From Leptolyngbyaceae cyanobacterium clean351 (lineage in GTDB: Bacteria > Cyanobacteriota > Cyanobacteriia > DAIDHW01), in NCBI GenBank assembly GCA_027451865.1, contig DAIDHW010000003.1:99969-163968 (forward strand): 64,000 bases of DNA, written 5' to 3'. The first letter of the stretch is position 1; each line of letters begins with the position of its first letter. Positions 26,648 through 33,445 of this stretch are shown one piece after another. The translations under genes were made by a program, and so were the position numbers. Under the pieces are notes generated by a model. It worked only from the letters and a program-made list of their open reading frames with translations. It was not told the DNA's origin and searched no databases.

Positions 26648-27724
26648 CTAGCGGACAGCAGTCTGCTGGGCACGCACGTCAATCGGCGGAATAAAATACA
26701 AAGCCACCAAATGACCTAGGTTGGATAGGTACAGAGGCAGCTTGCGGAAGAACTTAAGCACCTTCGGCCCCTCAGCCTGGGCGATCTCGCCTAGGCGGCA
26801 GTTGTTTTCCACGCATTGATCTAGACGCCGATAGAAGTCAGGGTGCTCCACGTCTAAAACCACGGGGAACACCCGCCCAGCGGTTTCGTTAGTCTTGCTG
26901 ATCACGTGGATGTCATATTCCCGAGCATCCAGACCAATAGCCCGGTAGAAGCCGGCCCGCTGGATATCGTTGAGGTACATAGTGGCAAACACCGACAGCA
27001 GGAAGAAGCGGCTCCACAGGCGAGCTCGCCAGTCATTGAGGAACTGGGGTTGAGCTCGCATCACGGCGTCGAAGAAGTCCCCGTGGCGGTTTTCGTCCTG
27101 GCACCAGTTTTCGAAGAATTTGAAGATTGGATAAACTCGGTCCTCGGGGTGGGCTTCTAGGTGCCGGAAGATAGTGATATAGCGCCAGTACCCAATCTTC
27201 TCTGATAGATAGGTGGCGTAGAAGATGAACTTAGGCTGGAAGTAGGTGTACTGGTGGGTCTGGGTGAGGAATCCCAAGTCTAGGGAAAGGTTGAAGTCCG
27301 ACATGGCCTTATTCAAGAAGCCGGCATGGCGGGCTTCATCCCGGGCCATCAAGGCAAAGGACTCCGCTAGCAGCGGGTTACGGCCCTTAAGCTTCCGCGA
27401 GAGTTCTTTGTAGAGTAAGAACCCAGAAAATTCAGCCGTGCAGGAGCGCTCCAGAAATTCCACAAACAGCCGGCGGGTCTCCCCGTCAATGTGCTCCCAG
27501 GACTGGTCAAACTCTGCATCCCGGACGAAGTGATGACGATTGTAGTCAACCCGGAATTCCTCTAACAGTGCCTCTAACTCGGCGGCATTGACTTCCACCT
27601 CCATCCGGGCTACCGCCTCAAAGTCCGTAGTGTAGAACCGGGGGGTAAGGATGGTTTCTTGGGCAGGCACCTTGATGCCGGGTCTAAGCTCGGTAAAATC
27701 CGCTTTTTTTATAGTGTCTACCAT
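26648..27724 (-). CDS. acsF: Mg-protoporphyrin IX monomethyl ester (oxidative) cyclase
   Basis: Di-iron motifs [15 protein letters not shown] and [14 protein letters not shown]; AcsF family sequence. Confidence 0.96.
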
Positions 27725-27871
27725 TGATCTTCCGTCTGAATGGCCACGACCCCTACTCTAGCAAATCTCTTGACCCCGTAGCACCTTTGAACGCGAAAAT
27801 TAGCACTGCTGCGGTTGACACCCGCGGGTAACCTTGCTGAATAGTCTCAGGTGTGTTAAGCTTCGGCCCAT

Positions 27872-27918
27872 GGCAATGGAGCTTGCCACAACCGCCCGTC
27901 GGGCTGATGGCTCCTACC
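27872..27918 (+). ncRNA. Fluoride riboswitch (crcB motif) aptamer
   Basis: GGCAATGGAGCTTGCCACAACCGCCCGTCGGGCTGATGGCTCCTACC: GGCAA/TTGCC and GCCC/GGGC stems with conserved CTGATG and CTCCTAC; upstream of a ClC-type gene. Confidence 0.88.
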
Positions 27919-27958
27919 TTTCCGAGGCCCCTCTCAGGAAGCTAGGAGCTTTTGCTTT
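27910..27958 (+). terminator. Intrinsic terminator overlapping the 3' part of the fluoride aptamer
   Basis: GCTCCTA(CCTTTCCGAG...CTCAGGAAGC)TAGGAGC stem followed by TTTTGCTTT; the left arm is part of the aptamer. Confidence 0.75.
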
Positions 27959-28006
27959 GAGGCTGCGGGAGGGGGAGAGACACAAACCCCCACGCAGGAG
28001 TCGTTA

Positions 28007-29293
28007 ATGGAGCCTAAACCATCTCACCAACTAGAACCTAATCCGGTTCACCAGTGGGCTCGGGTTGATCAGTTACTTGCCACTATCCAGATTTTCAAGT
28101 GGCTGCCGGTAGCGGTGCTAGTGGGGATTATGGCCGGGACTGGATCGGCAGCCTTGCTAGCTGCCCTAGAGTGGGCGACCCGGTGGCGGGAAGCCCACCT
28201 GTGGATCCTATATTTTTTGCCCCTGGGGGGCTTGGCGAGCGGACTGATGTATCACTACCTCGGCAAGAATGTCGAGGCTGGCAATAACCTCCTGTTGGAG
28301 GAAGTCCATAGCCCGCAAAAGGTCGTGCCAGTACGGATGGCTCCCCTAGTGTTAATTGGGACTGTGCTCACCCACTTCTTCGGGGGTTCTGCTGGCCGGG
28401 AGGGTACTGCCATCCAGATCAGCGGCTCCCTGGCTGACCAGTTGACCCAGTGGCTGCGCCTGAGCAACCGTAACCGCCGCATACTGCTCATGGCCGGGAT
28501 CAGTGGAGGATTTGGGTCTGTATTCGGAATTCCCATCTCTGGTACCCTGTTTGGCCTAGAGGTGTTGACCATCGGTACCTACAGTTACGAAGCCATCTTC
28601 CCTTGCCTAGTGGCCTCGGTTGTGGGCTACCGAGTGACTCTACTCTGGGGGATTGAGCATCCTGTTTACTCGGCCTTTCCAGTCCCCCCCTTGAGTTTGC
28701 CAGGCTTGGTTTATAGCATTATTACCGGGGCGGCTTGCGGCACGGTGGCGATGGTGTTCGCCCGGCTCACCCACCGTTTGGGACACTGGTTTAAAGTCAC
28801 ATTCCCCTATGCCCCCCTCCGGCCTGTGGTGGGAGGCGTAGCCATCGCGGTGATCGTGGTGAGCACTGGGGCCACTCAGTTTATTGGCTTGGGAGTGTCA
28901 ACGATTCTGGAAGCCTTTTCCGCCCCTCTGCCCCCCTGGGACTTCGCAGCCAAACTCGGCCTGACGGCCCTCACCCTCGGAGCTGGGTTTAAGGGGGGAG
29001 AGGTAACCCCCTTGTTCTTCATAGGGGCCACCCTAGGCAACGCCCTGGCCCTAGTCTTGCCTCTGCCCAGACCCCTGCTAGCGGGGATGGGGCTAGCCGC
29101 TGTATTTGCCGGGGCCGCCAACACGCCTGTGTCTTCGACGGTGATGGCCTTTGAGCTATTTGGCCATCAGGCGGGACTCTACGGCGCCATTGCCTGTGTG
29201 GTCAGCTACCTTTTCTCTGGTCACCGCGGAATCTACGGTGCCCAGCGGATCGGCCAGGCCAAGCATCCCCTCCTACCTAGGGAGAGGAGCTAG
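28007..29293 (+). CDS. ClC-family transporter, probable ClC-F fluoride/proton antiporter
   Basis: EAGNNLLLEE, GGSAGREGTAIQISGS, FGIPISGTLFGLE, FKGGEVTPLFFIG replace the canonical Cl- motifs; fluoride riboswitch upstream. Confidence 0.88.
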   Translation: MEPKPSHQLEPNPVHQWARVDQLLATIQIFKWLPVAVLVGIMAGTGSAALLAALEWATRWREAHLWILYFLPLGGLASGLMYHYLGKNVEAGNNLLLEEVHSPQKVVPVRMAPLVLIGTVLTHFFGGSAGREGTAIQISGSLADQLTQWLRLSNRNRRILLMAGISGGFGSVFGIPISGTLFGLEVLTIGTYSYEAIFPCLVASVVGYRVTLLWGIEHPVYSAFPVPPLSLPGLVYSIITGAACGTVAMVFARLTHRLGHWFKVTFPYAPLRPVVGGVAIAVIVVSTGATQFIGLGVSTILEAFSAPLPPWDFAAKLGLTALTLGAGFKGGEVTPLFFIGATLGNALALVLPLPRPLLAGMGLAAVFAGAANTPVSSTVMAFELFGHQAGLYGAIACVVSYLFSGHRGIYGAQRIGQAKHPLLPRERS

Positions 29294-29312: not shown

Positions 29313-32300
29313 CTATACCCCCTCAATCTGATCTTCTAGCTCCTGGTAAAGCTCCCGCAACTGCTGGAGGTTTTCGGCGCTAGTGTTCCAATAACCTCGG
29401 CCGTTGACCTCCAGGAGCGTGCCGACCATCTTGCGGAAGGAGTGGGGGTTGAGCTCCTTAAGTCGTTGTTGCATCTGGGGGTCCTTGATAAAAGTGGAGT
29501 TAGCGTCTTCGTAGATCCACTCGTCTACCGCTCCCGCCGTCGCCGACCAACCCAGGGTGTTTACCAACCGCTTAGACAGCTCCCGTACCCCCTCATAGCC
29601 GTGGGACAGCATTCCCTCGTACCACTTGGGATTGAGGAGTTTGGTGCGTGAGTCAAGGCGGACCGTTTCGGTTAGGGAGCGCACTTGGGCATTGGCGGTA
29701 GTTGTGTCAGCCATAAAGGCCGCTGGTTTCTTGCCGTCCTCGCGCAGGCGACCTACTACCTTAGTGGGGTCCGAGTCAAAGTAATGGGACACATCCGTCA
29801 GGGAGATCTCCGCTGAGTCCAGGTTTTGAAAGGTCACATCCACGGTCTTGAGGGCCATTTCAAAGACGTCCCGGGCCTGCTCCATAGTACCGGGGCTGTC
29901 GGCACTAAAGGCAAAGGACTTGCGGGCCAGATACATATCCTGCAGCTCCGCTTCATTTTCCCAGGTGCTGTTTTCCACCGCCAGGTTAATGTTAGCCGCG
30001 TAGGAGCCAGAGGCATTAGAGAAGACCCGGGTAGCCGCCTGACGCAGGTCAACCCCCAGAACCTGGGCCTGCTCTAGAGCATGCTTGCGCACAAAGTTCA
30101 TCTCCAGAGGCTCAGGAGCTTCCGCCGCCAGCTTCACTGCCCGGTCTAGGAGCATCATTTGATTCAAGAACAGGTCTCGAAACACCCCAGAGCAGTTCAC
30201 TACTACGTCAATCCGGGGACGGCCCAACTCCCCTAGGGGGATCAACTCCAACTTGTTGACCCGGCCGAGGGAATCGGCTACCGGCATCACCCCCAGCAGT
30301 AGCATCACCTGGGCTAAGGACTCCCCGTAGGTTTTGATGTTGTCTGTCCCCCAGAGGACACAGGCGATGGTCTCTGGCCAAGCCCCTTGATTTTCCGCCC
30401 GCTGCCGCTCTAGGAGCCGGTCGACAACGATCTTAGCGGAGGCCACGGCGGCGGTGGTGGGAATAGCCTGGGGGTCGAGGGCATGAATATTCTTCCCCGT
30501 CGGCAGGACTTCGGGATTGCGCACCGGATCACCCCCGGGACCTGGCAGGATGTACTCTCCTTCTAGGGCCCGCAGCAGTGCCCCTAGTTCGTTGTCAGCC
30601 ACAATCTGCTGTAGGCAGAACTCCAGGTATTCAAAAAGGGGCTTGAGAGCTTGGGGGTCTACCTTTTGATAACCGTGCCGGTGGAGGGCCTCCAGCCAGG
30701 GCTCCTTACGGCCCATCTGGAAGAAGTTAAGCACGGCCACCCGCTCCACCCGCCCCTCAGCGTTGGTTTGCTCTTGGACTAGAGCTGTGACGGCCCCGCG
30801 CACTGCCTCGGTAATCGCCTGTAGCTGTGTAACTGCCCCTAGGTCTCCCTGGTTCTGGCGGCGGTACAGATCTTCTAGATCTATCCCTAGACTGTTGGTG
30901 AGAATCCGGGGCAAGCTGAGAATCTGGTCCTCAGGCCGGTCAAGGCTGGCAATGTTCACCAGGGTGGCTATGGCTTCGGTAGCCGTCGGTGGTTTGCCGA
31001 TCACGTGCAGGCCACAGGGCAGTAGCCGAGACTCGATCTCCATCAGCTTGGCGTACACCTGCCCAACTACCCGGTCTCGGGTCTCGGATTCCAGGTCCCG
31101 GGCATCCTGGTCCGGAAGGGCAATGTCCTGGTCTAGGTTAACCAGGCGACACTTATCGATGATGCTGTTGACAATGGCTGGGCCGCGGCCAGTATCCTTG
31201 AGGGTCTGGTAGGAGGCGATCAGCTCTCCTAATTCCTTGAGACCCTTGTAGAGCCCGGCATTTTCCGCTGGCGGTGTCAGATAGGAAATGGTTTCGGCGT
31301 AGGAGCGCCGCTTGGCAATGGTAGCCTCACTAGGGTTATTGGCAGCGTAGTAGTAGAGATTGGGGATGGAGCCAATCAGGTTATCTGGGTAGCACTCCCC
31401 AGACATACCCATTTGCTTTCCGGGCATAAACTCCAGGGAGCCGTGGGTGCCAAAGTGCAGGACGGCGTCGGCTTGCCAGATCTTCTCCAAGTAAGTGTAG
31501 TAGGCGGCAAAGCCGTGGTGGGGGCTAGCAGAGCGAGAGAACAACAGACGCATCGGGTCCCCTTCGTAGCCAAAGGTAGGCTGCACCCCGACAAACAGGT
31601 TGCCAAAGTGTTTACCATACACCAGTAGGTTTTCCCCGTCGGTGTTCAGGTGCCCTGGGGGGGGCCCCCAGGAAGGCTCCAGGCGCTCGGCGTAGGGGGT
31701 GAGTTGTTGATACTCTGCCACGCTCATGCGATAGGCGACGTTTAGTTCCGGACTGGCATAGCGGGCTTGGGCGTCGTGGAGGACCTCTTGCATCAAGGCC
31801 TCTGGGGAGGCCGGCAGGCCTTGAATGTCGTAGCCATTTTGCTGTAAGGCCTCCATCACCCGGAATATGGAGCCGAAGACATCCAGGTAGGCAGCAGTGC
31901 CCACATTACCCTTGTCAGGGGGAAAACTGAACACCGTAATTGCCAATTTTTTGGCCAGTTTGGGCTTACGGCGCAGGTTTACCCACTGCATCGTCCGTTT
32001 GGCTACTGCCTCAACCCGGTCTTGGAGCGCCACCGCCTTACCGGTCATGCTGTCTCTACCAGACAGGATAATCGGCTCGATTGCTCCATCAAGCTCCGGG
32101 AGAGCAATCTGCAGGGCCACCTGGATCGGGTGTAGGCCCAGGTCACTGTCTTGCCACTCTTCGGTGGTTTGGAAGACCAAGGGCAGGGCCACCAAGTAGG
32201 GACGGTTTAGGCGTTGTAGTGCTTCGATGGCCCGGGGGTGGTCCTGGCGAGCCGGCCCCCCCACCAGGGCAAATCCGGTCAGGGAAACTACCGCATCCAC

Positions 32301-33296
32301 ACTAGGCTTGGGCTCTGTGCGCCCCTGATGGCTATAAAAAAAGGTTTCCACGGGCTTGGCGAAATCTAGCCCCCCGGCAAATACTGGGATCACCCGTGCC
32401 CCCATAGACTCGAACTCTTGAACTACTGCCACGTAGTGGGCGTCATCCCGGGTCACCAGGTGAGTGCGCTGCAACAGTAACCCCACACAGGGGGCTAGGG
32501 GGTCCTTAAGATCGGGGGAAATATCCTCCCGGGAGTTGTACCAGCGCTGATACTCCTGGCTATCTTCAAACATTTGGGGAGCTAGGGGATGCCAGATACC
32601 CTGGTCCGGATAGGTGACCGGGTCACAGTAAACAAAGGTCTGCTGACGGCCCTGGTTGAACACGTAACGGTCCGCCAGCATCAGGAGGAAATTTTCCAAG
32701 TTCTCCCGAGAGCCCCCTAGCCAGTACTGAAAACTGAGCATGAAGTTGCGGGCATCCTGGGCCTTGTCCATGGGTAGGTACTTAAGCACCTGAGGCAGGG
32801 TCCGCAGGAGTTTGAGCATCCCCTCTTGGAAGGAAGCCCCGGACTGCTCCCGCCGCTTCTTCATGAATTGGGCAATTGCACTTTTAGACTGGCCTAACTG
32901 GGCCATAGAGAAGCTGCCTAGCTTGTTCAGGCGCATCAACTGGGGCATCGAGGGGAAAACCACTACCGCGTCTAGGCGGTCCCGGTGGGGTTCTACAGCA
33001 GCTACCACCTTGTCGGCTAGGTCCTCAAGGAAGATGAGTGAGGCAATGAATACGTTAGCCTGCGCTACATCCCGACAAAGGTCCTGGTAGTTGCCGACAT
33101 CCCGCAGTTCCTCAATCAGATAGCCACTCAGTTCAATGGCTAGGCTGGGGTTATGCTCGTTGATTGCCTGGGCTGCTGCCGAAAGGACGCTCTGGTATTG
33201 GGGTTCTAAAACCACATAGACCACCCGCAGTATGGACCGGTCCCCAGGATTCTCGGGGGCGATACGCCGGATGGTGGGCTTAACGTGGGTGAACAT
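29313..33296 (-). CDS. chlH: Magnesium chelatase subunit H
   Basis: [15 protein letters not shown]..., ~1327 aa, [51 protein letters not shown]. Confidence 0.98.
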
Positions 33297-33445
33297 GCAG
33301 TCTAGCTCCTTAAAGTGCTGCGAACAGGGCAAACCATGCGAACATTAAAAACCACTGAGGTAGAGGGAAAGCCTGCCAAGGCCTGTCTACAACCCTAGGC
33401 GATTGTGAGGATTAGGTATTTCTGCCAATTGTATCAGGAATAGGT

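Follow-up and report, generated by a model that had tools for sequence, protein, structure and literature searches.

The control of EriC/CLC genes by fluoride riboswitches is established (PMC7266159). In transcriptional fluoride switches, an overlap of the aptamer pseudoknot with the terminator is the experimentally described logic (PMC11077080, PMC13273304), and translational fluoride riboswitches of Burkholderia pseudomallei and Pseudomonas syringae have served as controls (PMC13273304). In a transcription assay, 323 of 1901 fluoride riboswitch variants (17%) were functional, and a covariation model of the whole switch was built for the terminator types only (PMC13273304). Cyanobacteria lack Rho, and 22% of the transcription units of Synechococcus elongatus end in intrinsic terminators (PMC13289151).

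The 64,000-nucleotide stretch of Leptolyngbyaceae cyanobacterium clean351 DNA analysed here (hereafter the window) contains a fluoride aptamer that ends 83 bases upstream of a CLC gene. The two likely constitute a fluoride-responsive ON switch for a CLC-F exporter, in which a strand freed from the aptamer would stop transcription, hide the ribosome site, or both. The locus comprises the following features:

27815–27845 (+), possible promoter with TTGACA (27815–27820), a 19-nt spacer and AATAGT (27840–27845); weak, from direct reading.
27863–27923 (+), fluoride riboswitch aptamer (RF01734) with P1, P2 and pseudoknot; cmscan, 53.4 bits.
27872–27875/27884–27887 (+), P1, from the RF01734 alignment.
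27878–27882 (+), 5′ pseudoknot strand GGAGC, from the aptamer alignment; complementary to 27910–27914.
27894–27897/27901–27904 (+), P2, from the RF01734 alignment.
27905–27916 (+), switching strand UGAUGGCUCCUA; putative partners are the pseudoknot (fluoride bound), the right arm of hairpin A and the Shine-Dalgarno region.
27909–27950 (+), hairpin A (attenuator- or terminator-like), with arms 27909–27916 and 27943–27950 and an inner stem; from folding and conditional shuffles (1/50).
27950–27958 (+), interrupted U run UUUUGCUUU, 7 U in 9 bases; T-tail score 3.68.
27963–27997 (+), hairpin B (CUGCG..GGGGG / CCCCC.CGCAG), touching the Shine-Dalgarno sequence; from folds, no better than shuffles.
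27996–28006 (+), Shine-Dalgarno sequence AGGAG followed by UCGUUA, which reaches the start codon; complementary to 27905–27915 over 11 bp.
28007–29293 (+), clcF, CLC-type fluoride/proton antiporter of 428 amino acids; from Pfam PF00654, PDB 6d0j, motifs and tree.

The Rfam cmscan of the whole window placed the RF01734 match well above the gathering score of 34 (E 5.7e-12 over 64 kb; E 3.6e-14 in a local scan), aligned it over the full model (positions 1–64) and identified it as the sole riboswitch in the window. This bears out the initial annotation, which had proposed a fluoride (crcB) aptamer and whose quoted letters all lie where it had placed them. In the alignment, the pseudoknot pairs GGAGC of the P1 loop with GCUCC (27910–27914) of the 3′ strand. 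The 2.48-Mb genome, which is 98.8% complete, contains no other fluoride aptamer, and a search of the leader for a further RNA family yielded a chance-level match only. The fold of 27820–27965 is better than those of 198 of 200 shuffles. Furthermore, the 5′ flank AAGCUUC (window 27852–27889) can pair with GGAGCUU, hiding the 5′ pseudoknot strand. The spacing of the possible promoter is longer than usual, and a promoter scan allowing spacers of 16–18 nt did not detect it.

clcF is an intact reading frame that starts with ATG, with AGGAG located 6 bases upstream. Its product matches Pfam PF00654 (E 2.5e-71). Among solved structures, the product is closest to the CLC fluoride/proton antiporter PDB 6d0j (E 1.8e-57 over 380 residues); the search found one other kind of solved CLC, the chloride-type Sll0855, at E 2.1e-9. 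The motifs GNNLL, GREGT and GGEVTP are all present in the product and common to its ortholog proteins. Nearer to CLC-F than to chloride CLCs and containing GREG and GGEVTP without GSGIP, the protein is classified from its sequence as a CLC-F transporter, in agreement with the clade to which it had initially been assigned. In the tree, in which deep branches are unresolved, it falls outside the GREGP chloride-type group. The genome encodes four CLC genes; two of the three paralogs of clcF belong to the GREGP group and the placement of the third in the tree is unsure. Because a search of the genome for a CrcB gene returned no match, the window CLC is probably the cell's main fluoride exporter.

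The switch and clcF are situated between two chlorophyll-synthesis genes on the reverse strand, acsF (26648–27724, NCBIfam match) and a putative magnesium-chelatase H subunit gene (29313–33332, assigned by its look only). A genome scan identified 53 clcF ortholog loci, mostly cyanobacterial with a few from Burkholderiales. Since a fluoride aptamer is located upstream in 41 of them, the pairing of aptamer and clcF is ordinary and the window switch is a further example of a known arrangement. The ortholog aptamers mostly lie ~100 bases before the CLC gene and elsewhere before a preceding gene, which in three tested loci encodes a Na+/H+ exchanger with a universal stress domain; CrcB is among the preceding genes in one locus. 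Such an exchanger separates the fluoride aptamer from clcF in loci L059, L082 and L097, and only a short remnant of it is found there in L060, L063 and L066.

The arms of hairpin A consist of GGCUCCUA (27909–27916) and UAGGAGCU (27943–27950), so that the 3′ end of the aptamer forms the left arm of a long hairpin, which folds as initially described. The stretch 27909–27965 folds at −22.3 kcal/mol, with 19 of 200 shuffles equal or better; when everything except the aptamer strand was shuffled, 1 of 50 sequences matched the hairpin with its U tail. The T-tail score of the U run has a chance of 0.0015 per window position (exceeded at 0.15% of positions). The combined hairpin and T-tail d-score of −1.9 is borderline, ranking 13th among 95 cyanobacterial leaders and eighth among 79 candidate sites on both strands of the 64-kb window, which also provided the background for the terminator score; seven sites score higher. 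An automated terminator scan found none. The terminator proposed in the initial annotation is plausible but weak. In the cyanobacterial leaders L141, L150 and L158, a much better U run (UUUUGUUGUUUUU) follows hairpin A, and some of these may be real terminators.

The same aptamer strand has a further complement at the ribosome site. UGAUGGCUCCU (27905–27915) is complementary over 11 continuous bases, G–U pairs included, to AGGAGUCGUUA (27996–28006), which begins at the Shine-Dalgarno sequence and stops immediately before the ATG. Six random letters would lengthen the Shine-Dalgarno match to 11 bp with a probability of 0.0036, and the duplex of aptamer strand and Shine-Dalgarno region (−15.5 kcal/mol) is the strongest of 96 leaders, with a fraction of 0.005 of shuffles as good. 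Enforcing either hairpin A or the Shine-Dalgarno helix within 27852–28032 results in the same ensemble energy of −69.6 kcal/mol. With the aptamer locked, opening the ribosome site of the window is predicted to be 2.6 kcal/mol cheaper, which is not above the 3.5 kcal/mol of spacer-shuffled controls; the shuffled spacers also show this gain because the pairing of aptamer and Shine-Dalgarno sequence is kept in them, and the spacer itself thus adds no detectable translational platform.

Two other candidate masks of the ribosome site, hairpin B and a loop pairing of CCCCUC with GAGGGG, were rejected, as shuffled versions of the region fold just as well and the spacer contributes nothing to opening. 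A pairing of 27917–27924 with 27966–27973, predicted in one aptamer-locked fold, is speculation, and enforcing it in a longer stretch costs 2.6 kcal/mol relative to the free fold. In L053, L057, L068 and other Nostoc loci, UGACUCUCC pairs with AAGGAGUCA around the Shine-Dalgarno sequence, and Nostoc-type leaders also have a 9-bp complement between aptamer and Shine-Dalgarno sequence.

In the proposed mechanism, bound fluoride would keep GCUCC within the pseudoknot of the aptamer, transcription would continue through the rest of the leader, and the ribosome site would be free for synthesis of the exporter. Without fluoride, the strand would be released; during transcription it could form hairpin A and transcription may terminate at UUUUGCUUU, and in transcripts that escape it could pair with the 11 bases before the start codon and block translation. 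We infer such an ON switch, in which the pseudoknot, the attenuator hairpin and the ribosome site compete for a single strand, from the borderline terminator, the 11-bp Shine-Dalgarno pairing and the equal energies of the two OFF structures.

For comparison, 96 usable leaders, cyanobacterial and related, were gathered, and 62 non-redundant leaders were used for opening energies. Across these 62, the ribosome site is on average 3.3 kcal/mol costlier to open when the aptamer strand is free than when it is locked, compared with 0.1 kcal/mol in their spacer-shuffled controls (Wilcoxon p 1.5e-10, which overstates independence as the leaders are related), and 39 of the 62 exceed their control by at least 2 kcal/mol.

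When 29 leaders of the most frequent sequence type (including L008, L055, L127 and L140) are aligned, three helices are seen, hairpin A, D and C, and the platform ends at the start codon. Hairpin A, formed by the aptamer strand and its right arm, is 97.6% paired and hardly varies. Helix D, in which a downstream strand pairs with the loop and right arm of hairpin A, is 92% paired, and 6 of its 13 pairs have changed on both sides (26 cells); its changed cells and covariation score lie above all 500 shuffles and far above slid versions, although the helix columns were named after viewing the sequences and the controls therefore lean in its favour. Helix C, which is 88% paired, joins the downstream strand of D to the bases immediately preceding the ATG, and both partners have changed in 4 of its 7 pairs. 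As helix D uses letters that also belong to A and to C, a mutually exclusive switch logic fits: without fluoride, A and C would form and hide the site, and with fluoride, the pseudoknot and D would form and leave it open.

Of 95 other fetched loci, 78 are matched by a covariance model of the 29-leader alignment. These matches do not all contain the platform, since a score of about 27 bits is reached by the conserved aptamer arm alone. The window, at 27 bits, is the weakest of the 79 matches, and only its arm region (27900–27947) matches; helices D and C were not found in it with the covariance model, and its membership in the common three-helix platform was rejected. Based on the difference in opening cost and the covarying helices, translational control probably prevails among cyanobacterial fluoride switches. 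Whether cyanobacteria mostly use this conserved translational platform, with the window as a divergent form that combines pairing of aptamer strand and Shine-Dalgarno sequence with an attenuator-like hairpin in two layers of control, is in our estimation evenly balanced.

In the window, termination and translational block appear about equally likely as the means of control, and it is quite possible that both act. A purely transcriptional switch, with hairpin A as an intrinsic terminator and an accidental Shine-Dalgarno pairing, can be entertained tentatively: hairpin A includes bases of the pseudoknot strand and precedes the U-rich run, whose T-tail score is rarely exceeded in the window, a search of this genome for a Rho RNA-binding domain found none, and the mechanism is known from Bacillus cereus (PMC11077080). 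However, the d-score is borderline, the extension of the helix beyond the Shine-Dalgarno sequence is unlikely by chance, and only a minority of the S. elongatus transcription units end in intrinsic terminators (PMC13289151). The initial annotation had regarded the ON mechanism as a direct reading of the sequence. Its ON logic via the pseudoknot strand stands, but termination is not established and this part is weakened by the borderline d-score, by a Shine-Dalgarno pairing that is at least as well supported, and by cyanobacterial relatives most of which look translational.

The converse, that hairpin A does not terminate and the aptamer strand acts solely by hiding the ribosome-binding site without fluoride, is likewise possible, if somewhat doubtful. 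The strength of the pairing relative to the other leaders, its shorter version in Nostoc-type leaders and the average translational logic of the 62 leaders all argue for it, yet hairpin A is followed by more U than in most relatives and the opening-energy difference of the window does not exceed its control. It is very improbable that the aptamer is a non-functional relic upstream of a constitutively expressed transporter; the unclear promoter speaks for it, but the aptamer score is high, P1, P2 and the pseudoknot are intact, as is the gene, and the association of the two has been kept in most ortholog loci. A fluoride-responsive ON switch acting through one or both of the OFF structures thus remains the preferred reading.

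The comparison matters more than the window switch, and the covarying translational platform is its most interesting by-product. No description of a cyanobacterial fluoride-switch platform was found in the searchable papers, subscription papers being mostly outside reach, and its novelty is provisional. A translational platform in cyanobacteria, which lack Rho and often make no use of canonical terminators (PMC13289151), would help explain part of the variants that were non-functional in the transcription assay, and it is directly testable.

Like the CLC-F antiporter of PDB 6d0j, the window protein has the GREG and GGEVTP motifs and G-N/M-N-L at the anion site, but it contains GNNLL and GREGT where 6d0j has GMNLV and GREGV. 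The leader resembles the transcriptional fluoride riboswitch of B. cereus (PMC11077080) in that the left arm of the terminator overlaps the 3′ pseudoknot strand; it differs in its interrupted U run and borderline score, and its terminator is a predicted one. With the translational switches of B. pseudomallei and P. syringae, it shares possible ON control at the ribosome-binding site, but the window additionally has a terminator-like hairpin. In aptamer architecture, pseudoknot strand switching and exporter target it is similar to RF01734 riboswitches upstream of eriC/clcF, and differs from these in that its strand can pair with both an attenuator hairpin and, over 11 bp, the region from Shine-Dalgarno sequence to start codon. 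The window switch is one more case in which fluoride sensing would be coupled to fluoride export.
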